A stretch of DNA of 64,000 nt from Defluviitaleaceae bacterium (GTDB taxonomy: Bacteria > Bacillota > Clostridia > Lachnospirales > WQUN01), in assembly GCA_009780185.1 (NCBI GenBank), contig WRAN01000003.1, positions 124,001-188,000 of the forward strand, in the 5' to 3' direction. Position 1 is the first letter of the stretch. Each line of letters begins with the position of its first letter. A model generated the notes under the pieces. The model was not told the origin of the DNA. It saw nothing but the letters and a program-made list of their open reading frames with translations, and searched no databases. The position numbers were made by a program, and so were the translations under genes. Positions 20,884-50,640 of this stretch are shown here, piece after piece.

Positions 20884-21621
20884 ATGTTGGCAAATCTCTA
20901 CACAAGAGCGCGGACAATGATTTTTAATGCACTGGGGATATCAGGAGATACCAGCGAAAACAGCGTATACTACATCGGAGGTAGCGAGGTTCTGCCCGCG
21001 CCTTTGGCATCAGATGAAGAGGCGGATTGTCTGGCGCTTCTAGGCTCAGAAGACGATGCCCGTGCTAAGGCTATTCTTATAGAGCGTAATCTACGGCTGG
21101 TAGTATACATAGCCCGTAAATTTGAAAACACAGGCATCAATGTTGAAGACCTGATTTCTATCGGGACTATTGGCTTGATAAAGGCTATCAACACCTTTAA
21201 AACAGACAAGAAAATAAAACTGGCCACCTATGCCAGCCGCTGTATTGAGAATGAAATTCTTATGTATTTGAGGCGAAACACCAGAGCCAAATCGGAAATA
21301 TCTATTGATGAGCCGCTTAATATTGACTGGGAAGGAAATGAGCTTCTGCTTTCGGATATTTTGGGTACGGATGTGGATATTATTTCGCGAGATTTAGACG
21401 ACCAGGTAGATAGAGAGCTGTTGAATACAGCTTTGGAAAGACTATCTAAAAGGGAGAGGCGTATTGTAGAACTGCGGTTTGGGCTTTATTCCGGTGGGGA
21501 AGAAAAAACTCAGAAGGAAGTTGCTGACCTTCTGGGGATTTCGCAGTCGTATATATCGCGGTTAGAGAAGAAGATTATCGGGCGGCTGAAAAAGGAAATG
21601 AACCGGATGGTGGTTGGGTAG
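20884..21621 (+). CDS. sigE: Sporulation sigma factor SigE
   Basis: A 245-aa mother-cell-specific RNA polymerase sigma factor. An N-terminal pro-segment (about 30 residues) is followed by region 2 ([20 protein letters not shown] and [20 protein letters not shown]) and region 4 with a helix-turn-helix ([20 protein letters not shown]). It is activated by SpoIIGA, encoded just upstream. In many Clostridia sigG follows directly, but here a terminator and a 550-bp repeat element follow instead. Confidence 0.97.
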
Positions 21622-21668
21622 CAGACTAATTGCCCCGATACTTTGGTCAAAACCGGAAAAGTAACACA

Positions 21669-21706
21669 ATACTCCCCTATTTATGAATGATGGGGGAGTA
21701 TGTTTT
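21669..21706 (+). terminator. Terminator of the spoIIGA-sigE operon
   Basis: ATACTCCCC pairs with GGGGAGTAT around a 15-nt loop and is followed by GTTTTCTT. It lies 48 nt after the sigE stop. Confidence 0.8.
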
Positions 21707-21726
21707 CTTATCAGAAATTATGTGAA

Positions 21727-22276
21727 CACGTCAGTCTAATTTACATAACGAGCGGGCGCAAGGCTGCCGCGCGGGCGTGTAAGAGCCGGTTTTGGCGCAT
21801 GTTCCGGCTATGCACGGAAGCCTCAAGCGGGGAAAAAAGCCGTTTATGCACGGATTGTCATCCGCATAAACGGCGTTTTTCCGCCACTTGAGTCTCCCGT
21901 GCGCCTCCACAGGCGCCAAAACCGGCTCTTACACGCCCGCGCTACTTCTTTGCAAAAGGGTATAGAAAAATACATCACATGCATATCCGGCTCTTAAAGC
22001 AATTAACCAAAATCAATGCCGAGGGTGTAGCAAGAGAAAACCAAAATCAATGCCGAGGGTCTAGCAAGAGAAGGAATGACCGAATTTCGCCGCTTACGTA
22101 GGCGCTGAACAGACTCCGGCGATAGAAAAACGCCGTTTATGCGGATGACAATCCGTGATAAACGGCTTTTTTCCCGCCGGAGGCTGTTTGGCATAAGCCG
22201 GAGTACGCGGCGAAATTCGGTCATTCCTTCTCTTGCGGGGCTTTGCTCAAGTTCCGTTTTAAATTAGACTGACGTG
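21727..22276. mobile_element. Non-autonomous MITE-like element with nested hairpins
   Basis: The ends are perfect 17-bp terminal inverted repeats: CACGTCAGTCTAATTTA at 21727-21743 and its complement at 22260-22276. The element is flanked by a 10-bp direct repeat, ATTATGTGAA, at 21717-21726 and 22277-22286. That is a clear insertion footprint. No transposase or convincing ORF lies inside. Two large palindromes fill it: perfect 30-bp arms at 21769-21798/21913-21942, and perfect 29-bp arms at 22065-22093/22207-22235. Their cores (21833-21880 and 22126-22172) are near-perfect inverted copies of each other around GCCGTTTAT. A 10-bp target duplication is within the range of IS4-like elements, but the parent transposase is unknown. 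Confidence 0.8.
22005..22072 (+). repeat. Tandem 34-bp direct repeat inside the MITE-like element
   Basis: Two copies (22005-22038 and 22039-22072) of a 34-bp unit containing AACCAAAATCAATGCCGAGG differ at one base. They lie between the two giant hairpins, and the second copy runs into the left arm of the second hairpin. Confidence 0.85.
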
Positions 22277-22294
22277 ATTATGTGAATATTTTTG

Positions 22295-22323
22295 TTGAAA
22301 CCTAGAGAAAATTATGGTATAGT
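22295..22323 (+). promoter_or_regulatory. Strong SigA promoter of the structured RNA
   Basis: TTGAAA, exactly 17 nt, then TATAGT: close to consensus. It lies 18 nt beyond the right end of the inserted element and predicts a start near 22330. Confidence 0.8.
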
Positions 22324-22329
22324 GCGGAC

Positions 22330-22666
22330 TAGAAAGGTCAGCGGCATCGTACCCCTCTGATGTTACCTGATTTTCCCCTTAAAAAAGCAAAAAAAGAACC
22401 GCGGAACCGTGAAGTGCCCGCCAAGACACTAACACGGGCTCGTAGGGATGTAAGCCCATCGCCTAGAGCACAGGACAAACCTGCCACCGCAGCAGAGTAA
22501 GTTTACAATATTCGCCCACATACTTCAAGCGATGCAATATTAGCATGGCGTATTGGTTGCTTTTACTCGAGAGTGGATAGGCTGGAGAGTTCTATGTTTA
22601 TACGTACATATTTGTGCGTGTAGGCGATGATGGGATTATACCCCATCTTCCCTACACGCATTTTTT
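22330..22666 (+). ncRNA. Structured noncoding RNA of unknown class
   Basis: A roughly 335-nt transcription unit has its own near-consensus promoter and ends in a strong terminator (GCGTGTAGG / CCTACACGC plus T6). No ORF fits it. Internally there are several plausible stems: GGGCT..AGCCC near 22436-22460, GTGC..GCAC enclosing it, CAGG-acaaa-CCTG near 22471, and GCAATA..TATTGGTTGC near 22532. This density of short GC stems in unpaired A-rich linkers is typical of a folded regulatory or housekeeping RNA. I do not see tmRNA, RNase P or SRP hallmark motifs. Candidate classes to test are 6S-like RNA and the Firmicutes raiA RNA; I cannot assign it by eye. Confidence 0.65.
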
Positions 22667-22713
22667 ATTTTCCTTTGCCCTGGCCTTTCTAATACTAAAA
22701 AAGGAGGTGAGTT

Positions 22714-22923
22714 ATGGAGGCTTTAAAAGTAAGACCCATTGATGATCTTTGTAGGATTAGCATCCCAAGAGAAGTAAGAGAAATTAAGGGCTGGCAACCA
22801 AATGATAACATCGGATTTTACAACTACAATGGTGTCATAGTAATTGAAGCGGTAGGGCAGCCCAGAGAGTCTAAGCAGGTAGAAGAGATTATGCGGCTTC
22901 ACAGTCCTCAAACCTGGATATAA
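22714..22923 (+). CDS. AbrB/MazE-type SpoVT-AbrB domain protein
   Basis: A 69-aa protein consisting almost entirely of one swapped-hairpin DNA-binding domain (VRPIDDLCRISIPREVREIK, then WQPNDNIGFYNYNGVIVIEA). Such small proteins are transition-state regulators (AbrB-like) or antitoxins, and no toxin gene is adjacent. It has an excellent ribosome site (AAAGGAGGTGAGTT) and follows the structured RNA terminator by about 50 nt. It lies close to sporulation genes, so a transition-state role is plausible but unproven. Confidence 0.85.
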   Translation: MEALKVRPIDDLCRISIPREVREIKGWQPNDNIGFYNYNGVIVIEAVGQPRESKQVEEIMRLHSPQTWI

Positions 22924-22948
22924 CCTCCAGCACGCCCACAATGGTAAT

Positions 22949-23012
22949 GACGTAGTAAATATCCTTCGACGCCATTATTTTTTCGATGGCTACGAAGGAT
23001 ATTTACTACGTC
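22949..23012. terminator. Long perfect hairpin after the AbrB-like gene
   Basis: Perfect 20-bp arms starting GACGTAGTAAATATCC enclose a 24-nt loop that itself pairs GCCAT/ATGGC. It is followed by GCTCTTTT. It lies just after the AbrB-like gene and could act as its terminator, although the stem is longer than needed. Confidence 0.6.
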
Positions 23013-23070
23013 GCTCTTTTGAAGGGTGTATAGCAAAGCACAACTCCGGAAGATAACAAGCCAAGCCCGA

Positions 23071-23134
23071 CAGACGAAAAAACTCTCCTTGCCAATGAAA
23101 AAATATTGGCGCGGGAGAGTATTTCGTCTGTCTT
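23071..23134. repeat. Imperfect hairpin in the gene-free interval 22924-23292
   Basis: GACAGACGAAA..ACTCTCC..GCCAAT pairs with ATTGGC..GGAGAGT..TTTCGTCTGTC, giving about 24 paired bases. No ORF is present in this interval. It is the second of three hairpins spaced about 70-130 nt apart. Confidence 0.6.
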
Positions 23135-23216
23135 TGTCATTGTGGTAGTTATTGCCGGGGTTATGGAGAGGTTTCTGTTGTAAAATTCATGATTTGGAGA
23201 GGAGGGGGAGGGATGT

Positions 23217-23262
23217 GATAAGCACCCTCATAGCCTGTGAATTAGCTCTGAGGGTGCTTATC
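23217..23262. terminator. Hairpin downstream of the giant surface protein gene
   Basis: GATAAGCACCCTCA pairs with TGAGGGTGCTTATC (14 bp). A T7 run follows 10 nt later on the plus strand. It lies between the convergent AbrB-like gene and the giant surface protein gene. Confidence 0.6.
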
Positions 23263-23292
23263 CGCGATGATGATTTTTTTGATTAGCATGAG

Positions 23293-40005: not shown

Positions 40006-40314
40006 TTACAAAACCAAAAATGTAGGTGCGATATTCGCTATCTTTGCCCCCATCACACAATCAACACTATTAGGACTAAGGCGCTCAAAAATTATAAGGC
40101 TATCTTCAGGATTGCTTTCGCCAGAAAATTTTCTTACCACATCCAAAAGTGCTGACCTACAACGCTTCACACCCTCCGAGTCCAGCCGACACAGAAAAAT
40201 TGAAAACTGTATACGTATCCCAAAGTCCTTCATACATTTATCAATTTTGCTACGCAGCCGGTTACTTGTTATATCATAACAAACTATCGTGATATTACTC
40301 TTTGTGTGGCTCAT
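40006..40314 (-). CDS. cas2: CRISPR-associated endonuclease Cas2
   Basis: A 102-aa Cas2. The beta1 motif ITIVCYDITSNRLRSKI contains the conserved Asp, and IQFSIFLCRLDSEGVKR is the second family segment. The ATG was chosen with AGGGGG about 8 nt upstream; the longer frame would add five residues. Its start lies inside the end of cas1 (20-nt overlap), giving the usual coupled cas1-cas2 pair. It acts with Cas1 in spacer integration. Confidence 0.94.
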   Translation of the reverse strand: MSHTKSNITIVCYDITSNRLRSKIDKCMKDFGIRIQFSIFLCRLDSEGVKRCRSALLDVVRKFSGESNPEDSLIIFERLSPNSVDCVMGAKIANIAPTFLVL

Positions 40315-41245
40315 AGGTTGCCCCCTCAAGTAATGCAGTTTTTAGCTTAGCAGCTTGGTTATCAAATCTGCTACGCCATTTAGGTACACGTTCGTGGTAT
40401 AACCCACAAAACTTACGAAACCCATCATCTGTTAATCGCCAATCCCCATCTGACATGAAAAAATGCTCAGCTTTCAGTTGTTTTTTATTAAGCATAGTGC
40501 GGACCCATGTATCAATAAAAGGAGACCGAAACTCTTCCATAATATCAAGCGCAAGCGAATTTCTACCGTAGTGTATGCTGTGCAAAAAGCCTACCTCAAT
40601 ATCAAAATTTCTGGCAAGCAAGCAGGTTGTAACTTCATTGCACAAAAAAGCATAACCCAAGTTAAGCAGAGCATTAACGTAGTCAGGTGATGGACGATAT
40701 TCGCGCCGAGTAAATACAGGGTTTTTTAGCAGATGGCGATAACAATCCCAATAGTATTTTGCGGATATACCTTCAATGCCAAGAATCTCATCTATCTGCT
40801 CTGCGTCATTCAGCTTTTTCATGAAGCCATTGATTGCAGACAAATGGCCATCATGAGCATGAAGGGTATTGTCAAGTTGATATTTCCGTATGACAGACAT
40901 CTGATTGTGTATCTTCCCCGAAACTATGGCCTTAGCTATAGCAAGCCGCTTGGAGGCATCCATAAAAGTAGAAAACTGTGCAAGCCTGACGATGGCACCT
41001 CCAGATTTTGTGGACATAACGCGCCCTTTAATTTTGCCCCATTTAGATAAATAAATGGTATTAATGCCTCTATAAAGCAATAAATCAAGTGCAGGAGCTG
41101 TGAGGTTTACGCTATCAAAAATTATGAGCGTATTAACATTGTGGAGAGGTACCGTAGATATTACTTTTCCATCCATAGTTACTTTAAGATGTTCCCCTTC
41201 GCGGCGTATACTACAATTTTCTTGTTGCACATATAGAGTTTCCAT
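40295..41245 (-). CDS. cas1: CRISPR-associated integrase Cas1
   Basis: A 316-aa Cas1, the catalytic subunit of spacer integration. The N-terminal beta domain includes SVNLTAPALDLLLYRGI. The C-terminal helical domain carries YRPSPDYVNALLNLGYAFLC and GFLHSIHYGRNSLALDIMEE, which hold the metal-binding Glu, His and Asp/Glu residues. It is a stand-alone Cas1, not fused to a reverse transcriptase. ATG (METLYVQ) is preferred over a GTG two codons upstream on ribosome-site spacing. The upstream 62-codon ORF ends at this start. Confidence 0.95.
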   Translation of the reverse strand: METLYVQQENCSIRREGEHLKVTMDGKVISTVPLHNVNTLIIFDSVNLTAPALDLLLYRGINTIYLSKWGKIKGRVMSTKSGGAIVRLAQFSTFMDASKRLAIAKAIVSGKIHNQMSVIRKYQLDNTLHAHDGHLSAINGFMKKLNDAEQIDEILGIEGISAKYYWDCYRHLLKNPVFTRREYRPSPDYVNALLNLGYAFLCNEVTTCLLARNFDIEVGFLHSIHYGRNSLALDIMEEFRSPFIDTWVRTMLNKKQLKAEHFFMSDGDWRLTDDGFRKFCGLYHERVPKWRSRFDNQAAKLKTALLEGATYEPHKE

Positions 41246-41247
41246 GG

Positions 41248-41436
41248 TCACCCAACCTTTATAAAAATGCCGTCTTCATTTTTTATCAGTACCGTGCGGT
41301 GTCTAACTGGGCCAGGCGCAGGATATTTATTGATGTGGCGCTGAGTTTCCGCATAATCGTAATCGGAGCATTGACTTAAAATGTAGTGAATATACTTTTC
41401 ACCACTTTCGCCAAGACAATGGAATATCTGCAACAT
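41248..41436 (-). CDS. Small ORF of unknown function upstream of cas1
   Basis: A 62-codon ORF (begins MLQIFHCLGESGEKYIHYIL) that ends where cas1 starts. I recognise no family. It has no clear ribosome site of its own, but an 18-codon ORF with a strong one ends 3 nt before it, so coupled translation is possible. It could be a genuine small adaptation-module protein or the remnant of a longer gene damaged by frameshift or deletion. Confidence 0.5.
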   Translation of the reverse strand: MLQIFHCLGESGEKYIHYILSQCSDYDYAETQRHINKYPAPGPVRHRTVLIKNEDGIFIKVG

Positions 41437-41439
41437 TTA

Positions 41440-41496
41440 TTAAGGAAGGTTGCCATTGGTTACAAAGATGCGGCTGTTTTGAGGGTTCATTTTCAT
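41440..41496 (-). CDS. 18-codon leader-like ORF ahead of the cas1 operon
   Basis: A very short ORF (MKMNPQNSRIFVTNGNLP) is preceded by AAGGAGGACGTACCC, one of the best ribosome sites in the region. It ends TAATAAATG, so the next ORF starts almost at once. It may be a translational leader peptide or the broken N-terminus of a gene whose rest is the 62-codon ORF. Confidence 0.4.
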   Translation of the reverse strand: MKMNPQNSRIFVTNGNLP

Positions 41497-41652
41497 GGGT
41501 ACGTCCTCCTTGTAAATTGGTATAGGCTGTGGATTTTTTGCTCTACTTGAGACTTATGCTTACTATAGGTCTCTTAAGGAGCTTTTTTGCATATATCGTG
41601 TCACTAATTTTTGTGGAAATGTTTACATATCATAAACAGCATAACTGCAATA

Positions 41653-41695
41653 AAAAACCGCGTCTCTATGTCATAGGTGACGCGGTTTTTATTTT
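41653..41695. terminator. Terminator between array 2 and the cas1 module
   Basis: AAAAACCGCGTC pairs with GACGCGGTTTTT around a 14-nt loop, with a T-run on the minus strand. It lies 54 nt past the last repeat of array 2 in the direction of array transcription. The remaining sequence between 41497 and 41748 shows no gene. Confidence 0.75.
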
Positions 41696-41748
41696 GTTGA
41701 AAATGCAGTGTGCAACGACATAAGAAGAAAGCCATCACTGTATAAAAT

Positions 41749-42737
41749 GATTCAATCCGCTCTCGCGGCAACAGGCCTACTCAACCCCTCTAGGAAGGAG
41801 CTTTTGAAATGGCGAGAAAAAGTTTCAATCCGCTCTCGCGGCAATAGGCCTACTCAACGCAAAGTGCGAAGACATTAACACGGAAGAAGATTGCGTTTCA
41901 ATCCGCTCTCGCGGCAAAAGGCCTATTCAACTGGAAAGAGTGCAAGGCATGAAGAATTTGCCAACCCGTTTCAATCCACTCTCGCGGCAATAGGCCTACT
42001 CAACAGTCCAAAGAAAGTCCGCGCGGCGTTCCCTAACCAGGGTTTCAATCCGCTCTCGCGGAAATAAGCCTACTCAACAAGTTATTGAAGAAGCCATGGA
42101 GGCTTGGAAAAACAGTTTCAATCCGCCCTCGCGGCAATAGGCCTACTCAACCCATTAGCAGTCGGACCTTTAAAAGTAGAAAAGGTCGTTTCAATCCGCT
42201 CTCGTGGCAATAGGCCTACTCAATTCCTTTAAGCCGCTACAATAGGCAGTACAGTTACGGTAGTTTCAATCCGTTCTCGCGGCAAAAGGCCTATTCAACG
42301 ACACCAGAGTATGCAACTGTTAGCTTGGACGGAACGTTTCAATCCGCTCTCGCGGTAAAAGGCCTACTCAACCAGACCCCAGATATCTCCTGCTTTATAG
42401 CACAAATCGTTTCAATCCGCTCTCGCGACAAAAGGCCTACTCAACATAATCGCCCGTCGCATCTTTGCCCTTTTGTATTGGGTTTCAATCCGCTCTCGCG
42501 GCAAAAGGCCTACTCAACAAACACAGTTAAGAGAGCAACACAAACCGCAAGCGCGTTTCAATCCGCTCTCGCGGCAAAAGGCCTACTCAACCAAAGAAAT
42601 TTGCAAAAGATACAACAAGAATCATCGTTTCAATCCGCTCTCGCGGCAAAAGGCCTACTCAACCATACAGCCCACAGCAGTCGCACGACCCAGGCATTTC
42701 GTTTCAATCCGCTCTCGCGGCAAAAGGCCTACTCAAC
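41749..42737 (-). CRISPR. CRISPR array 2 (14 repeats, 13 spacers)
   Basis: 37-nt repeats start at 41749, 41822, 41895, 41968, 42042, 42115, 42188, 42263, 42336, 42409, 42482, 42555, 42627 and 42701, with spacers of 35-38 nt. The repeat is the same family as array 1 but with A at the variable base (GGCAAAAGGCC) in the four leader-proximal copies. Older copies carry T, C or other changes (for example repeat 5 GAAATAAGCC, repeat 7 ending CAAT). The right-hand end is homogeneous, which places the leader there. Confidence 0.98.
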
Positions 42738-43018
42738 CCTACCCATTTTTAGCCCGCATAAACACTGGCTTTGCAGGGTGCGTTTTCGGGATGATTGATT
42801 TTGAGTCATTAACCCCGGAGATTTTTGTAAATTATTGGGCATCAACACCCCATCATTCACCTCATCAAAATCTAAAAAAACCGCATAAACATTGAGGTAG
42901 AGCACCATCAGGAAACAAACTTTGAAACAGTCGGGATGATAGCCCTTTTTGAGCGCAAAAATCATCCCGACTATTATCAATCATCAACAAAAAAATTACA
43001 ATACCGCTAAACATGAGT
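42738..43018 (-). promoter_or_regulatory. Leader of CRISPR array 2
   Basis: About 281 nt homologous to leader 1. It shares the first 40 bases almost exactly, an internal CCGCATAAACA(C/T)TGAGGT block, and the hairpin GTCGGGATGAT / ATCATCCCGAC at 42930-42971. It lies between the effector operon and array 2. The conserved hairpin lacks a T-run on the minus strand, so it is not an ordinary terminator. Confidence 0.85.
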
Positions 43019-43106
43019 AACCCGGTAATATCTCAGAAAATGCGACGTGTTTCAATGATTCCCACAATGCGATATCTGTTCATACGCTACTACACAATTT
43101 GCCCTA

Positions 43107-45062
43107 TTATTGGTTGTGCGGGTTTCTAGGTAGATTCTGGTCATGCTCGGCATCACTTAGGTCTGGCAGTGTTTTGATAAATTGCTGGGTAAAGTCATTG
43201 CCACGCCCCCTGCGATTTGCTTGAAACCAAGCAAAGACACTCTCACTTCCCTTGGGGCCGCTTTTCGGATACATCACATTTTCATGTTTACCTATCCAAT
43301 TGGATACACGCATAAACTCATTGGTATGTGTTAAAGATGCAGTAATATCTTTACTTGGCAGTGGGTGTAACGAAATATTAAGACTATCATCAATTTTATA
43401 TACCCCACTTTTGTCATAGTCAATGGAAATACCAACACTACCATACCCAATAGGCTTACCATGGCCCAGCTTAAACCCATGAGAAGGGGCGTCACCAGAA
43501 GCCTTGCCGCCGATAGTAAGCACCCAAATTAGTTTAGCCAGTTCATCTTCTGTTACATTTTCAAAGGCAACATCAAATGTGAAGCTATGCTCTGCTTTTA
43601 CAGCTCTTGAGATTACAGTCATATCTGGCCTGTCTGTTGGGTTTGCTACCTGTGTATCTTTGCTATGCCAGTAAAACTTGCGCCCCTTTATGCTAACCGC
43701 TTCCGCACTCAAAACCTCTTTTTTATTTTTCCCCGCTCCATGGGTAATTTTGTAGTCATAATTGTAGTAATCTGCACCCTCAATTTTATTCATGTAAAAC
43801 TCGGTTGCACTAGGGCGTGGTTGCCCAAGGATGGCAAGTCTTATCGGCTTACCTTCATTTTCGTACCAATCATTCTCTTGCAACGATGTAGCGTCACGAA
43901 ACGACACACGAGATGCTAATGCGTTTACATTTCCACTACCTTCACTGTCATCATCATCTTTTCCAACCATACCAAATAAATTGCAGGCATCGCACAAGCT
44001 GGCACTATTCTTGCATGGTGCGAAGTCGCCAACTATTTCACTGACCTTGCGTGCAAAAACCTCTTGACTTATACAAGCTGGAGAAATGTAATATACATTA
44101 CCTAATTTTTCAAAATACACCGGAAACGGCTTGTCTGCTTCAATATTTGCCCAACCATCATAAGGAGGCATATTTGGGTTTTTGGCATTGGCCTTGTATA
44201 GTGACGCGATTTTCGTGGCTCGATTAATATCATCTGGGGAAAGCTTATAAGGGGTTTTATCGCTTTCGTAACCATAAACAACGGTATCAAAGTGCTTCTT
44301 AGTCGTATCCCCAAACCGGACCCCTGGCAGATGATACGCCGGTATTTCGTCCTGTCTTGTGCGGGATTTCTCTGCACTTGATATGACGGGGTACTCCAGA
44401 TGCTTTGCCTTGCCATACATGCCGCCAAACAAGACATACATCTCACGCCCCCATCCTGGATACTTTTCTCTACCAATGCGCTTGAACTTTTCACCTGTTG
44501 CTTTATTGGTGGCAGAGGTAAAGCCCTCGCCAAATACAGGCATTAAGGCCTTTTTGCCTTTTTTCAGGAACCACTTGCCATCAATTTTTTCTACAATACC
44601 TACGCCCATATTATCGCTTTTGCGCTCACGGTCATATGGTATTACGCTGCGTTTATTGAGCACAGTATCATCATCTATTGTAGACAAACAGCTATCTGTT
44701 AGGGCCTCATAAATACTGCGAATCATCCCTCTAATGCTTGAACCTGGGATCACCGGCGAAGAAGGGCTAACCTTTTCCCGGTCATCTTCGGGGTTGTCGT
44801 ATGAATAAAAATCATAGGAGCGTACTTTTTTCCTATCGACTTCCTTGTCCGTAGATTTCTTTTCTTTATTCCATTTACAGACGAGCTCATCGGCGAACTT
44901 TGAAAATGCATCTTCATTGGCTGCGCTGGGTATGATTAGGGGTGTCAATGTCTTTAAATTGCATTTTAGCACCCCAGTAAGCTGCCCTTTGCCGGTACCT
45001 TCTGATTTCCAATCCCCAAGTCCGATAAATGTATAGGGATTAACAAACTTATCGCTAGGCAT
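43107..45062 (-). CDS. Type III RAMP protein, Cas7 with insertion (TIGR03986-like)
   Basis: A 651-aa backbone-type RAMP. The N-terminus has FVNPYTFIGLGDW and LTGVLKCNLKTLTPLII. The glycine-rich loop reads SPVIPGSSIRGMIRSIYEAL, the hallmark of TIGR03986. A long insertion occupies the middle, including a Cys pair region (CKNSASLCDACNLFG) that may bind zinc. The C-terminus has SHGFKLGHGKPIGYGSV. No catalytic-looking Asp precedes the glycine loop, so it may be a non-cutting subunit. ATG was chosen at MPSDKF (GGTGG 6 nt upstream). It overlaps csx19 by 8 nt and is the last gene of the effector operon. Confidence 0.88.
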   Translation of the reverse strand: MPSDKFVNPYTFIGLGDWKSEGTGKGQLTGVLKCNLKTLTPLIIPSAANEDAFSKFADELVCKWNKEKKSTDKEVDRKKVRSYDFYSYDNPEDDREKVSPSSPVIPGSSIRGMIRSIYEALTDSCLSTIDDDTVLNKRSVIPYDRERKSDNMGVGIVEKIDGKWFLKKGKKALMPVFGEGFTSATNKATGEKFKRIGREKYPGWGREMYVLFGGMYGKAKHLEYPVISSAEKSRTRQDEIPAYHLPGVRFGDTTKKHFDTVVYGYESDKTPYKLSPDDINRATKIASLYKANAKNPNMPPYDGWANIEADKPFPVYFEKLGNVYYISPACISQEVFARKVSEIVGDFAPCKNSASLCDACNLFGMVGKDDDDSEGSGNVNALASRVSFRDATSLQENDWYENEGKPIRLAILGQPRPSATEFYMNKIEGADYYNYDYKITHGAGKNKKEVLSAEAVSIKGRKFYWHSKDTQVANPTDRPDMTVISRAVKAEHSFTFDVAFENVTEDELAKLIWVLTIGGKASGDAPSHGFKLGHGKPIGYGSVGISIDYDKSGVYKIDDSLNISLHPLPSKDITASLTHTNEFMRVSNWIGKHENVMYPKSGPKGSESVFAWFQANRRGRGNDFTQQFIKTLPDLSDAEHDQNLPRNPHNQ

Positions 45063-45564
45063 CAATGTCCACCAGTCCTTTCATCGCGCCTTCTTTAAAC
45101 CCGGTAAAAACATAGTCGCATACCTCCAGGCGCACACCACCTACAGAGCTTTCGACGATTCTAAGGAAATTGCGGATACCCAGCCACATGTATATATCAT
45201 CTTTTTTTAAAGCCAGTTTCCCGGGGAAATATAGCTGTCCGCCCCTATCTTCGGTAAGAATTGTCCAGTTGCCTTCGTAGGCTAAATCGGTGCCATACAT
45301 TAGATATTCTGCATCCTGCTTTGTGTAGTCTTTGCAATTTTCTAGCTCTTTACTATCTCGGAAAAGTAGGTTCCCTAGCTCGTCACGAATAAATCGCACT
45401 TCCCGCTTATCGTCAAAGACTCTAAGCTCTGTGACATAATCCCATCTAAATTGGGTAGTATCATGGAAAAGCAAGTTTTCGCCATCCCATATGCCGATGG
45501 CTACACCGTGGTACATTACTGTATATGCCCATGCCTTACCTTCGAAAGTATTGCAATCAATCAT
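45055..45564 (-). CDS. csx19: CRISPR-associated protein Csx19 (TIGR03984-like)
   Basis: A 169-aa protein matching the Csx19 pattern: VTELRVFDDKREVRFIRDE, then YLMYGTDLAYEGNWTILTED and RGGQLYFPGKLAL, followed by IRNFLRI. Csx19 is a marker of subtype III-D and is a structural subunit of the fused III-Dv complex. It overlaps both neighbours (ATGATTGA with the upstream gene, 8 nt with the downstream one), so the operon is tightly coupled. Confidence 0.82.
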   Translation of the reverse strand: MIDCNTFEGKAWAYTVMYHGVAIGIWDGENLLFHDTTQFRWDYVTELRVFDDKREVRFIRDELGNLLFRDSKELENCKDYTKQDAEYLMYGTDLAYEGNWTILTEDRGGQLYFPGKLALKKDDIYMWLGIRNFLRIVESSVGGVRLEVCDYVFTGFKEGAMKGLVDIDA

Positions 45565-46906
45565 TTATTGCGCCCCCTTTCGGTTCTTCCAGCAATTTTT
45601 CTCGGAGCATGTGCTTTGGCAACTTAAACAACTGGCACTTTGGCTTTTCAATCCCATCAATACATATTTTCTCAACAGAGAACACCCCACGGCCAATTGC
45701 CGTTTCACCACCGATTGTGACTAACCCCAAGTCAATAGCTTGCAAGGCCAGTAACAGTAGTTGATAGATTGCTTCGTCGCCTTTGGGATATTGCACTCTT
45801 AAGATAACTTCGCCTTTAAATTGTGGGCGGCTGGTAAAGAGTGCACGATTAGCCGCGCCCCCTGTCCAGCGGTCTATCTTTACGCGGGTGACCAGATGTC
45901 GTTTGTCTTTGCCAAAATAAGATGCGTCTACTCGCACCTTTGAAGGAAATGTTTGCTTATCGTCACTATGCTTATCAGGATAGCCGAAGACTTTATCCAA
46001 ATAACTATTACAATTTTGATACCCCTGGGTCTTTAGGAACCGTGCAAGGCCGCCCTTAATGGCTCCAGCCATAGATGTGCCATATATTACAGGTCTACCA
46101 TTGCTGGTTATTTGTGCAGAATCTTCTTTGCCAATAACACTGTAGTCATCACGGATTAATAACGAGCCTTTGAGCTTGAGCATTGCAGATATTTCGCCAT
46201 GTTCGCTTGTATATTTTGGTTGTTTTGGCTCGGGGTTAATCGTTAAAAGCTGATCCCATTTAAACCCTTTCCATTTCTCCAGCTCTGTACCATCACCACC
46301 AAAGGCTAACTTGTGTATACTTTCACATTCAAGCTTTCCAAACCCGCGAGAGGTTTTGCCGCCTACATATAGGTTGCTAAGTTTGCCAAGTAATCTGCCA
46401 AGAATATCTTCAAGGCCGTCACATGAATTTTTTCGAATAATCAGTTGCAAGCGTAAGTCAAAGCCTGCACCACGATCTATCGCTTCAAAGTCAAACTTTT
46501 TATCGGGCTTGGCTACTTTGTTTTCATCTAGCGCAACATTATCAATGGTAATAATTTTAGCGTCATATAGTGGTACATCGAAAACCCATAGGGGGCTTGT
46601 TATAGCGCTGGCATTATTGCTGTCAATCAAGGGGCCAAATAACTTTTTTGTACCTTCTTTATCCAAGGCACCAAATAACTTTGCGGCACTTTCTACATCC
46701 AAGGAACTGCGTAATACCCCGGCAATACTGGTGCCTGGCAAAACAGGGTTGCCCTTTGCATCCAGATAAACATCCCTTTTGGTATTCTCGCTTTCGCCGC
46801 TACCAATCAGAGCCGGTGACAGTAGCCGCATTTTGCAAAGCACAGCAACACGTCTGATTATAGGGTTGTAGTTTTCATCATTTGCTTTCTTTAAATAATC
46901 ACTCAT
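45557..46906 (-). CDS. Tandem Cas7-Cas7 (Cas7-2x) effector subunit
   Basis: A 449-aa protein with two complete RAMP modules. Module 1 has a potential catalytic Asp in NTKRDVYLD (Asp45/Asp49), then GNPVLPGTSIAGVLRS and GGKTSRGFGKLE. Module 2 begins about residue 235 with LKLKGSLLIRDD, an Asp in GKEDSAQIT, then GRPVIYGTSMAGAIKGG, the classic VKIDRWTGGAANRALF and GGETAIGRGVF. By analogy with Cas7 subunits the Asp before each glycine loop would cut target RNA at 6-nt spacing. It overlaps the upstream gene by 8 nt. This fusion is characteristic of the III-Dv type. Confidence 0.88.
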   Translation of the reverse strand: MSDYLKKANDENYNPIIRRVAVLCKMRLLSPALIGSGESENTKRDVYLDAKGNPVLPGTSIAGVLRSSLDVESAAKLFGALDKEGTKKLFGPLIDSNNASAITSPLWVFDVPLYDAKIITIDNVALDENKVAKPDKKFDFEAIDRGAGFDLRLQLIIRKNSCDGLEDILGRLLGKLSNLYVGGKTSRGFGKLECESIHKLAFGGDGTELEKWKGFKWDQLLTINPEPKQPKYTSEHGEISAMLKLKGSLLIRDDYSVIGKEDSAQITSNGRPVIYGTSMAGAIKGGLARFLKTQGYQNCNSYLDKVFGYPDKHSDDKQTFPSKVRVDASYFGKDKRHLVTRVKIDRWTGGAANRALFTSRPQFKGEVILRVQYPKGDEAIYQLLLLALQAIDLGLVTIGGETAIGRGVFSVEKICIDGIEKPKCQLFKLPKHMLREKLLEEPKGGAIND

Positions 46907-48980
46907 CGCTACCCCGCCTTTCCTGTTTAATCTGACGGATTTGCCGGATTACTGTTTTTAGGCAGTCGTGATATATCTGCCAGGCGCTATCGCAAAGCTT
47001 TTCGTCGTCATATTTTAGTGCGAAAACATTGTTGCATAGGTTTGTAATCAGCTTTAGTTTTTCATCGTCCTTCCAATCTTTATTGATTTTATCGTCCAAT
47101 GCTGATTTCGAATCAACCTTGCGTATAACATTTATAAGTCGTCCAAGTTGTGCAGATGAGGGTAGCTTGGTGTCATCACTTGTTAATGTCTTCGCCAGTT
47201 TTATAGCGGCTTGTTCCCATTCGCGCTTGGCTTCTATGGAATCTACCATGCCCTGTAATCTCGCACTTGCGGCTTCTTCTAGGGTGCTTTCAATTGATAC
47301 CTCTGTACCATCCCGCAAGCGGCCATCTTCCAAGGGTTTTTCTATAAAAACATGCCCAAAACCCTCGCCGGTACGCAGACCAAGAAACTGCTCCTTGTTG
47401 AGTGTCACATCATCGCCATTGTTGTGCAAAATAATTACGCTTCCACCGTTTATAGCTGGCGTCTGTGGGCGTGGCAGAAGCCATTTTGCATTGTACCCAG
47501 CAACACTGGCTTCTGATATGAATGAGCGTTGTACAATGAAGTTTTTGCAGATTTTTCTCGCCAAAATATCGGCGCTTGGGGCTATTGTGCCAACCTCATC
47601 GCATATAATCATGGGTGAGCGGGCTGTTATGCAAATATCTTTGCCTTTTTTTACTGTAATATTTTCCGCACTAAGCCTTGCTCTTGAGAAGTCATTTTTC
47701 CATTCAAAAGAAGCGTTGCCATACTGGGCTGTTCGTGACCTACCAAGGCGGATTATTGATTTCTTTGGCATTAAAGCAAAAAGCAACTCCAAATCACTTT
47801 TGGTGCCAACTATATTGCCAAAAAACACTTGCCGTGATGCCAGTGCCATATAACTGTAGAAAGCACCACTATCGGCTTGCTCATTCTCCTGGGGGGAGCC
47901 TTTGGCTTTGTCATGTGGGCGAGCATGGTGCATAACTACTTCAAACCTTGGCTTTGCAATATTTACTTCGCTGTGCTCATTTATATTGATATAACCGCCG
48001 AGCTTACCAGATAGATTATCATCAGTTTTATAGCCTATATTGGCATCATCAAAGAAGGCGTCGCCTTTTTTATTGGTTTTTATGCTGGTTGGAGTGGGGT
48101 AAAATGGAATATAATTGCCTGGGTATGCAAATCCAAACTTGACACCACCTTCTAAGAAGATGCGCCTGAAAGTCTCGTTTTCGTGGGCTTTATCCTTTGC
48201 CGGGTTTTCCTTTATCCATAAGCCAGCAAAACAGCCCATTAGCATACTACCTGGAATATGCCCTTCGCAGCCGTTTCCTCCTGATAGCAACGAGGATATA
48301 ACTGGGTCTTCAAGGGTGATTTTGTAAGATGCTTGGAATAAGGATTTATCATTACAGAATGGAATAATATATTTTTCTGGGGCACATTTTTCCTCATCAC
48401 TTGCAGCTGTACAAGGTTTTTCGTCTAGCTTGCACTCAACCTCGCCCCATCCCCGTGTACGATTAGAGCCCATACTTTTCAACAACCCACAACATTCTTT
48501 CAAAAACTTTAAATGTGTGCCGCTAAGGCTCTCAACATTAAAGGTCAGTGTTTCACCTTTATTAAGCACCCTTGCCGCCCGCAAAGATTTGTCTTTTGCT
48601 TTGCGGATAATTGCATCTAGTTCGTCGTTGGGGGCTTCCATTCGGGTGCTATAACGTAGTGTTGTAAGCGCATCTAGCGCACTGTGTTTCGGCACTTTGC
48701 CAGTGGTATAACCCAGTTGTCCATCTGAGATATTTAACATTCCGCTATCAGACTTGCCTACTTCCCCGAATAATTCGTAAAACGTGGTAGCAATCTCTTC
48801 CGATTGGCGAGCAGAAACTATTTCAAGCCCCACTTCTCGCAGGCAGCCCTTCAGGCGTTTTGCCGGTACATAGGGTAGGCCGGTAGCTTGGTCATACACG
48901 ATATCTGTATTGATGGTGGCGGCATGACCATGACCTGACGCAGCGCACAAGTCTGATTTAAGGTTGAGTATTATGTGCAT
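46899..48980 (-). CDS. Cas7-Cas5-Cas11 fusion effector subunit
   Basis: A 693-aa fusion. Residues 1-205 form a Cas7 module (Asp26 in NTDIVYD, glycine loop LPYVPAKRLKGCLRE, and SNRTRGWGEVE). Residues about 220-565 resemble Csx10, the Cas5-like subunit of III-D (HIPGSMLMGCFAGLW, KSIIRLGRSRTAQYGNASFE, and FGHVFIEKP). The last 120 residues are all helical (for example REWEQAAIKLAKTL and DSAWQIYHDCLKTVIRQIRQ), matching a Cas11 small subunit. This domain order is that of the III-Dv subunit from Synechocystis. It would cap the crRNA tag and contribute one cutting site. It overlaps the end of cas10 by 23 nt. Confidence 0.88.
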   Translation of the reverse strand: MHIILNLKSDLCAASGHGHAATINTDIVYDQATGLPYVPAKRLKGCLREVGLEIVSARQSEEIATTFYELFGEVGKSDSGMLNISDGQLGYTTGKVPKHSALDALTTLRYSTRMEAPNDELDAIIRKAKDKSLRAARVLNKGETLTFNVESLSGTHLKFLKECCGLLKSMGSNRTRGWGEVECKLDEKPCTAASDEEKCAPEKYIIPFCNDKSLFQASYKITLEDPVISSLLSGGNGCEGHIPGSMLMGCFAGLWIKENPAKDKAHENETFRRIFLEGGVKFGFAYPGNYIPFYPTPTSIKTNKKGDAFFDDANIGYKTDDNLSGKLGGYININEHSEVNIAKPRFEVVMHHARPHDKAKGSPQENEQADSGAFYSYMALASRQVFFGNIVGTKSDLELLFALMPKKSIIRLGRSRTAQYGNASFEWKNDFSRARLSAENITVKKGKDICITARSPMIICDEVGTIAPSADILARKICKNFIVQRSFISEASVAGYNAKWLLPRPQTPAINGGSVIILHNNGDDVTLNKEQFLGLRTGEGFGHVFIEKPLEDGRLRDGTEVSIESTLEEAASARLQGMVDSIEAKREWEQAAIKLAKTLTSDDTKLPSSAQLGRLINVIRKVDSKSALDDKINKDWKDDEKLKLITNLCNNVFALKYDDEKLCDSAWQIYHDCLKTVIRQIRQIKQERRGSDE

Positions 48981-50583
48981 TTTTCGCCCCCCTTATGTCT
49001 TTATAAATGTCTGCAAACTCTAATACGCTAAATAGCAATGCATATTTATATAGCGCTTTACCTTTTTCTTCATCTTCCGGAGAGGCATATTTTTTATATG
49101 TTATTTCTGGGTCGTATGCTTCTGGTAATGTGTAGTCTTTTGCCTTGCACCAAGCCAACACCTTTTTTACTTCATTTTCGCCATCTGCTATTGAGTCTCG
49201 CAGGGCTTTGAGTCTAGAGCGAGGCCATGCGCTGTCATTTTTCTGAGCCCAACTCATAAGCTCGGTAAAATCAGTAAAGCATTGATACTTGTTCTTGAAT
49301 AATTCAAGGGTTTCTGCTTCCATCGTGTCTGGATTCAGGACGCAGTAAGGGGGATGTACCAGGATATTTTCACCAATAGAATATTGCCGACTTCTTAGGG
49401 ATTTCAAATCTGCAATCATACCGCCTTGATGGAGATGAAAATCCATGAAGCTCCCGGCAATATCATTGGTGTGCTTATCTGCATTGCGTGTATAGCCTTT
49501 TGCGTTTTTACAGCAAGCTTCCGCCATTTTGTACGCTTCGGAGAAGGGATAGTGGCTGTGAAAAAGCACAACTCCAGCACACGCGCTGATATGAGGTTTC
49601 TTATCGTCTTCGGGCCAATGTTTGAAGGGGTATAGACGTTCCATTTTACTATGGGATTCAATCTGCATTAATAGTTCTGCCGCATAGCTGATGCCCCACA
49701 ATCCTGATACAACACATGTTATATCGTCGCCACCGCATATTATTGGAAGTTGCGGGGTGGATTCGTCTTTTTTATAATAGGAAGTGCCTTTGTAAAACTC
49801 GTCAAATGTGGCGTTGGTTGCATTAAGCGCCTCTTTGTACAACATATCAATGCTATAGGACATTTCACGTATTTTGGGCACAACTTCGCTCCATGAGTTG
49901 CTACCATTTTTCATATATTGCTCTATATGCTGACTTATGTTGTTTCCATCAACATGTACTACTGCAAGGAAACTTGTGCTTCCGAGCTTTAGGCTGTCGA
50001 AGGAGTCTAATCCGCCACTGTTGACATCGCGCTTACAATATTGATCCTGGCTAAGTTGCTCACGACTTATCTGGTCTATGTGCGTAACGGGACGGCCGGT
50101 TAGTAGCGATGCTCTTGTTATGGGCTGGCTGCCAGCCCCTAATGGATGATTAATTTCGCCTCTTGATTGTGATAGACGCCGCATTAGGTCTTTATGTTTT
50201 TGCTCATAGTCGTCTTTGAAGTCGGTTTCTACAAAGGCTGATGCTATGCCTATTGTGGCAGTTTTGTTATAGACCATGTGAAGGAAAGCTGCTGTTGCTT
50301 TTTTATAATCACAGAGTGTTTTGTATGCTACATATGCGTTGCCACCGCCTACATATATGATTTCGGCAGTTTTGGTGAATATCCAGGGGGTGGTTTCGCG
50401 GTGATGTTTGTCGCTCCAGCTTGTGATTACGTTGTCTTTACCGAATGTGGATTCTAGTACTTGTGGCAGAAATTCTGTAAAAACTTCTCCAACAAGCTTC
50501 GAAGCTCCTATGTTTTCTCTTAGCTTAGAAGATGCGAAAATGTAGGATTGAATACCGGTGGTGTCGTAGATGGAGTAAATCAT
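48958..50583 (-). CDS. cas10: Type III CRISPR large subunit Cas10 without HD domain
   Basis: A 541-aa protein. It begins directly with the first Palm domain (IYSIYDTTGIQSYIFASSK and IIYVGGGNAYVAY), with no HD nuclease in front. The second Palm has VVHVDGNNIS (about 209-218) and ICGGDDITCVV (GGDD at 284-287), the cyclase catalytic motif, intact. A C-terminal helical domain follows. It could therefore make cyclic oligoadenylate but not cut DNA by itself. ATG is 10 nt after AGGAGG; an in-frame TTG two codons upstream is an alternative. It heads the effector operon proper. Confidence 0.92.
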   Translation of the reverse strand: MIYSIYDTTGIQSYIFASSKLRENIGASKLVGEVFTEFLPQVLESTFGKDNVITSWSDKHHRETTPWIFTKTAEIIYVGGGNAYVAYKTLCDYKKATAAFLHMVYNKTATIGIASAFVETDFKDDYEQKHKDLMRRLSQSRGEINHPLGAGSQPITRASLLTGRPVTHIDQISREQLSQDQYCKRDVNSGGLDSFDSLKLGSTSFLAVVHVDGNNISQHIEQYMKNGSNSWSEVVPKIREMSYSIDMLYKEALNATNATFDEFYKGTSYYKKDESTPQLPIICGGDDITCVVSGLWGISYAAELLMQIESHSKMERLYPFKHWPEDDKKPHISACAGVVLFHSHYPFSEAYKMAEACCKNAKGYTRNADKHTNDIAGSFMDFHLHQGGMIADLKSLRSRQYSIGENILVHPPYCVLNPDTMEAETLELFKNKYQCFTDFTELMSWAQKNDSAWPRSRLKALRDSIADGENEVKKVLAWCKAKDYTLPEAYDPEITYKKYASPEDEEKGKALYKYALLFSVLEFADIYKDIRGAKNAHNTQP

Positions 50584-50640
50584 TAACAACCAGCCTCCTT
50601 ATGGTTTTGATTTTGTCTCGGGATGAATTGCATCAGAAAT

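Follow-up and report, generated by a model that had tools for sequence, protein, structure and literature searches.

We analyzed a 64,000-nt stretch of contig C3 (G000:C3:124001-188000; hereafter, the window) in the genome of a Defluviitaleaceae bacterium, a spore-former whose 2.55-Mb assembly comprises 31 contigs and is 84.5% complete. Here, sigE (20884-21621) is followed by a terminator (21669-21701), a noncoding element of 550 bases that carries no transposase of its own (21727-22276), and a gene resembling a structured RNA (22295-22700). The promoter-like sequence of the RNA-like gene, TTGAAA-17-TATAGT (22295-22323, plus strand), is host sequence that lies outside the element and is kept in the paralogs of the gene. 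The element ends 18 bp ahead of the predicted -35 box, in agreement with an earlier reading made from the sequence alone, which had placed it beside an RNA gene.

Several other features of the window were recorded. Downstream of its promoter, the RNA-like gene has an extended structured region, which AGAAAGGTCAGCGG and CCTGGCCTTTCTA appear to close, a conserved GCACAGGAxAAACCTGCCACCGCAGC sequence, and a terminator, after which comes a small AbrB/SpoVT-like gene (22714-22923). There are four to five copies of the RNA-like gene in the same genome (G000), about ten in G002, and several in G001 and G012. It had no Rfam match at the gathering cutoff or at an E value of ≤5 and appears to represent a multicopy family of structured RNAs that has yet to be described. 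Further long hairpins, at about 22946-23015 and 23069-23132, lie downstream of the AbrB-like gene (22940-23280), where the palindromes gave rise to chance microRNA matches. Far from the element, the region 40295-50589 holds a gene resembling cas1 (40295-41251) and others resembling type III CRISPR effectors, named from their translations; a repetitive FQSALAAKGLLNQ reading frame (42325-42798), judged in the same way, resembles a translated CRISPR array.

The element is bounded by 17-bp terminal inverted repeats (TIRs), CACGTCAGTCTAATTTA at 21727-21743 on the plus strand and its counterpart at 22260-22276 on the minus strand, which match at 17/17 positions. When the window was searched for the TIR with up to 3 mismatches, only the two element ends were recovered (0.12 sites expected). 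Immediately outside, ATTATGTGAA is present at 21717-21726 and again at 22277-22286, both on the plus strand; the chance of such a 10/10 match at that spacing is about 1 in 100,000 for random positions in the window. The perfect 17-bp TIRs and the exact 10-bp duplication noted by the sequence-only reading were therefore both confirmed. The TIR starts with CACGT, not CAGGG.

The interior contains two hairpins of 173-174 nt each. H1 (21769-21942, plus strand) has a perfect 30-bp basal stem (21769-21798/21913-21942) that leads into a conserved core with bulges, with homologues in genomes G116, G033, and G023, while H2 (22064-22236, minus strand) is an inverted, divergent copy of H1 whose perfect 30-bp basal stem (22064-22093/22207-22236) differs in sequence from that of H1. 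The cores are thus inverted copies of one another, as had been claimed; the claimed stems of 30 and 29 bp are indeed perfect, but both are 30 bp long. The apical stem of H1 (21831-21882) has an A-run before it and a T-run after it on both strands, and that of H2 (22125-22173) has the same A-run/T-run arrangement; each is a candidate bidirectional terminator. Folded as DNA, the element reaches -184 kcal/mol, versus -87 ± 5 in shuffled sequences (z = -19). The notion that almost none of it is unpaired was nevertheless overstated, since hairpins and TIRs cover about 381 of the 550 nt and the spacer of ~121 nt between H1 and H2 is mostly unstructured. A 34-bp tandem duplication involving this spacer (22005-22072, plus strand) is found only in the window copy among the three complete two-hairpin copies and is single in the other two, on contigs C4 and C1. 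An Rfam search of the element, at the gathering cutoff and at an E value of ≤5, matched no structured RNA above gathering; subthreshold hits to eukaryotic microRNAs were discarded as chance matches to long palindromes.

The sequence-only reading had proposed a search of the genome and its relatives for the TIR and core, and both parts were productive: relatives yielded the TIR and the core (see below), and the whole-genome census of G000 yielded further copies. Besides the three complete copies (window, C1, and C4, the last having partly lost its left TIR), these comprise a copy on C5 that is truncated at one end, a single-H2 copy on C13, and single or diverged hairpins on C15 and C17. Five copies (C12, C25, C18, C23, and the C5 end) are broken at contig ends within the hairpins, which fits a repeat that short-read assembly could not cross. 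Long copies are 88 to 91% identical, and all copies in this genome are intergenic. The C4 and C1 copies have no target duplication, so that the window copy is the only one among the assembled two-hairpin copies to possess one. A repeated motif, TGCCCCGATACTTTNG, which occurs at 21631-21646 in the window, lies beyond the TIR, at a distance of 13 bp, in copies C5, C18, and C23. It has 54 matches in G000 against 1 in a reversed control, some in face-to-face pairs, and possibly represents the ends of another mobile element.

The multicopy RNA-like gene provided a comparison of occupied and empty sites. The element lies upstream of the gene in C3 and C1 and is missing from the paralogs on C4 and C21. 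In the C4 paralog, only one TTTATGTAAA precedes the shared downstream sequence, at the place where the window has ATTATGTGAA, the element, and ATTATGTGAA again; the C21 paralog is also empty. The empty-site check that had been suggested thus succeeded at a paralogous site but not at an orthologous one: after sigE in G001 and G002, both the element and the RNA gene are missing, and the absence of the latter indicates a rearranged locus that offers no orthologous test. At the C1 paralog, the element occupies the same relative position without a left duplication, as would result either from block duplication of the whole unit or from use of the same site twice, and block duplication may therefore contribute to the copy number.

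This shared position is the one observation that would suit a fixed, immobile structure of the sigE/RNA locus, with TIRs and duplication arising by coincidence. We regard that explanation as having next to no chance of being correct, given the dispersed copies, the empty paralogs, the absence of the element after sigE in G001 and G002, and the MITEs of a sister species that combine the same TIRs with exact duplications. The sequence-only reading had itself set mobility against a sequence fixed at one locus, with no other copies and no empty site; the copies and the paralogous empty site contradict such fixation.

We then considered the source of the transposase. Allowing at most 1 mismatch, the TIR was found 22 times in G002, 16 times in G023, 12 times in G011, and 18 times in G176, with none in a reversed control. 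G002, from the same genus, contains MITEs of 195 bp that share these TIRs; all four copies with both ends intact have exact 9-bp duplications. In G074, an order-level relative from another family of the order, an insertion sequence of 1,148 bp with ends CACGTCAATCTAATTTG and CAGGGCAATCTAATTTG encodes an ISAs1 transposase (NF033564, E = 4e-68; PF01609), and a 391-bp deletion derivative in G012, of the same family as our genome, keeps a remnant of an ISAs1 transposase enclosed by the same TIRs. An insertion sequence with the ends of the element, which the sequence-only reading had hoped for, was thus found in part: the G074 TIR matches that of the window at 15/17 positions, and the reading frame is broken by one stop codon. 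No target duplication was seen at the G074 insertion sequence. Plasmid and phage records gave no match. The G000 assembly, at 84.5% completeness, contains no ISAs1 or DDE_Tnp_1 gene (no match to PF01609 or NF033564), from which we assume that the source is lost, unassembled, or nonresident.

A 10-bp duplication combined with a TIR starting with CA also suits IS4-like elements. Judging by duplication length, we first considered a different DDE family with a comparable value, such as IS4/IS231, as the origin of the MITE. ISAs1 took its place: the transposase lying between matching TIRs is NF033564, and IS1634 scored below the cutoff for it. ISAs1 elements are characterized by 14- to 22-bp inverted repeats starting with CAGGG and by 10-bp repeats (PMC11946415). 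CAGGG is present at one end of the G074 insertion sequence and in hairpin-containing MITEs of G023, with CAGGT in G011, and this hallmark also argues against an IS4/IS231 origin, which we now view as improbable. Target duplications are 8 to 10 bp overall (10/10 in the window, 9/9 in the G002 MITEs, and 8 to 9 bp in G023). The element is most likely moved by ISAs1-family transposases, and we infer that the window copy was moved in this way.

The sequence-only reading had also considered the element more structured than ordinary MITEs. Such strong palindromy is indeed unusual among MITEs generally, but within this clade it recurs in further MITEs that share the TIRs (z = -12.9 and -16.1). Their interiors are unrelated to that of the window element yet also strongly palindromic, which suggests that elements with these TIRs tend to carry palindromic cargo. 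MITEs of this TIR family at loci L162, L163, L164, and L167 (G002) and L149 (G023) have different, very palindromic interiors, and the four in G002 are inserted into TCATCCCGGGCTTGA-like sequences.

The hairpin core has a wider distribution. A covariance model search, in which a loose first look passes few candidates per genome to scoring, detected the core in 5/392 genomes, absence from the remainder not being firm; these were our own genome and G023, G033, G109, and G116, which represent four other genera. The G109 copy is degenerate. In the other four genomes, the core, including an unpaired internal-loop motif GGCT-ATG (GGCTATG)/CGCCTYCRCA, is kept while the basal stems differ in sequence. 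G033 has a pair of hairpins that face one another, the arrangement also present in the window. In G023, the module constitutes a single-hairpin MITE in its own right, ~250 bp long with CAGGGCAACAGC ends (CAGGG); of its five copies, four show duplications, which match at 9/9, 8/8, 8/9, and 8/9 positions. A separate hairpin-pattern search found no match in viral contigs and six in genome contigs, two of which are real hairpins, both from Defluviitaleaceae MAGs.

The 12 hairpins in which covariation was assessed fall into some five independent stem types, and the counts below are therefore not independent events. Both sides had changed in 39/70 pairs, and 98.1% of cells could pair, compared with 81.9% after shuffling and 38 to 47% when the strands were slid. 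The outer 30 pairs contained one G-U pair and four nonpairs in 359 cells. The basal stems change fast, and what preserves their complementarity may be selection or the repair of palindromes by template switching. We weighed whether the scarcity of G-U pairs proves action at the DNA level and dropped the idea, since use of both strands or template-switch correction would look alike.

It is conceivable that the hairpin is an autonomous mobile or regulatory module, read as folded single-stranded DNA or RNA in the manner of attC, REP, IS200/605, or a structured RNA, with ISAs1 TIRs as only one vehicle. The preservation of the core and its unpaired GGCTATG/CGCCTYCRCA motif in several genera on differing stems is consistent with this idea, as are the basal-stem covariation nearly free of G-U pairs and the copies in G033, C15, and C17a, around which no ISAs1 ends were recognizable. 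We nonetheless think it unlikely: the G023 copies have DDE-type ends and duplications, Rfam gave no match, and a relic TIR may lie upstream of the G116 hairpin, as judged by eye. Somewhat more plausible, though still tentative, is a functional cargo module (a bidirectional terminator or insulator, or a recognition site in folded DNA or RNA) that is carried in several MITE shells of the order and whose basal stems change in sequence but retain perfect complementarity through selection or a DNA template-switch process.

Taken together, the copies, the TIRs and target duplications in the sister species, the insertion sequence with matching ends, and the paralogous empty site support the original view of a nonautonomous transposon. 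Very probably, it is a two-hairpin MITE of the ISAs1 family that uses a transposase provided in trans, generates 8- to 10-bp duplications at intergenic sites, and has hairpins in place of the transposase gene. In this model, a DDE transposase of the ISAs1 type, acting in trans, would recognize the 17-bp TIRs and insert the element between genes, making the duplication, and two inverted copies of the hairpin module would stand in for the transposase gene. The conserved apical A-run/stem/T-run might serve as a bidirectional transcription terminator, a candidate function that we infer more weakly; termination in both directions could make insertions less harmful and allow the hairpins to persist. 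If so, there would be a simple reason for the tolerance of such elements between genes. The family links ISAs1 to a very structured cargo and provides naturally occurring hairpins whose stems vary in sequence but remain paired; should pairing be maintained by replication template switching rather than selection, it would be a good system for measuring that process.

In its mode of movement, the element is ordinary and of a known kind; what sets it apart is the hairpin module. Like ISAs1 insertion sequences, it has a TIR within the 14- to 22-bp range (17 bp), 8- to 10-bp target duplications, and TIRs in common with an NF033564-encoding element, but it has no transposase, its ends read CACGT instead of CAGGG, and its interior consists of two conserved hairpins. 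Integron attC sites are accompanied by an integron integrase and have their conserved R and L boxes in the basal part of the hairpin. The window hairpin shows the opposite pattern, with a conserved apex and a variable basal stem. REP/REPIN sequences, which are associated with RAYTs, are short palindromes tagged with GTAG/CGTC, moved by a Y1 transposase without target duplication. The element instead has hairpins of 173-174 nt, TIRs, and target duplications. As in BIMEs and REPINs, which are built from paired REP hairpins (PMC3116915, PMC2817692), two inverted hairpins form one dispersed intergenic unit; however, the window hairpins are about five times longer, and the unit has DDE-type TIRs with target duplications and a low copy number. 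MITEAba12 (PMC6382973) is likewise short, noncoding, flanked by TIRs and a target duplication, and moved in trans, whereas the window element, at 550 bp, is distinguished by its two 173- to 174-nt hairpins, a core shared across genera, and covarying basal stems.
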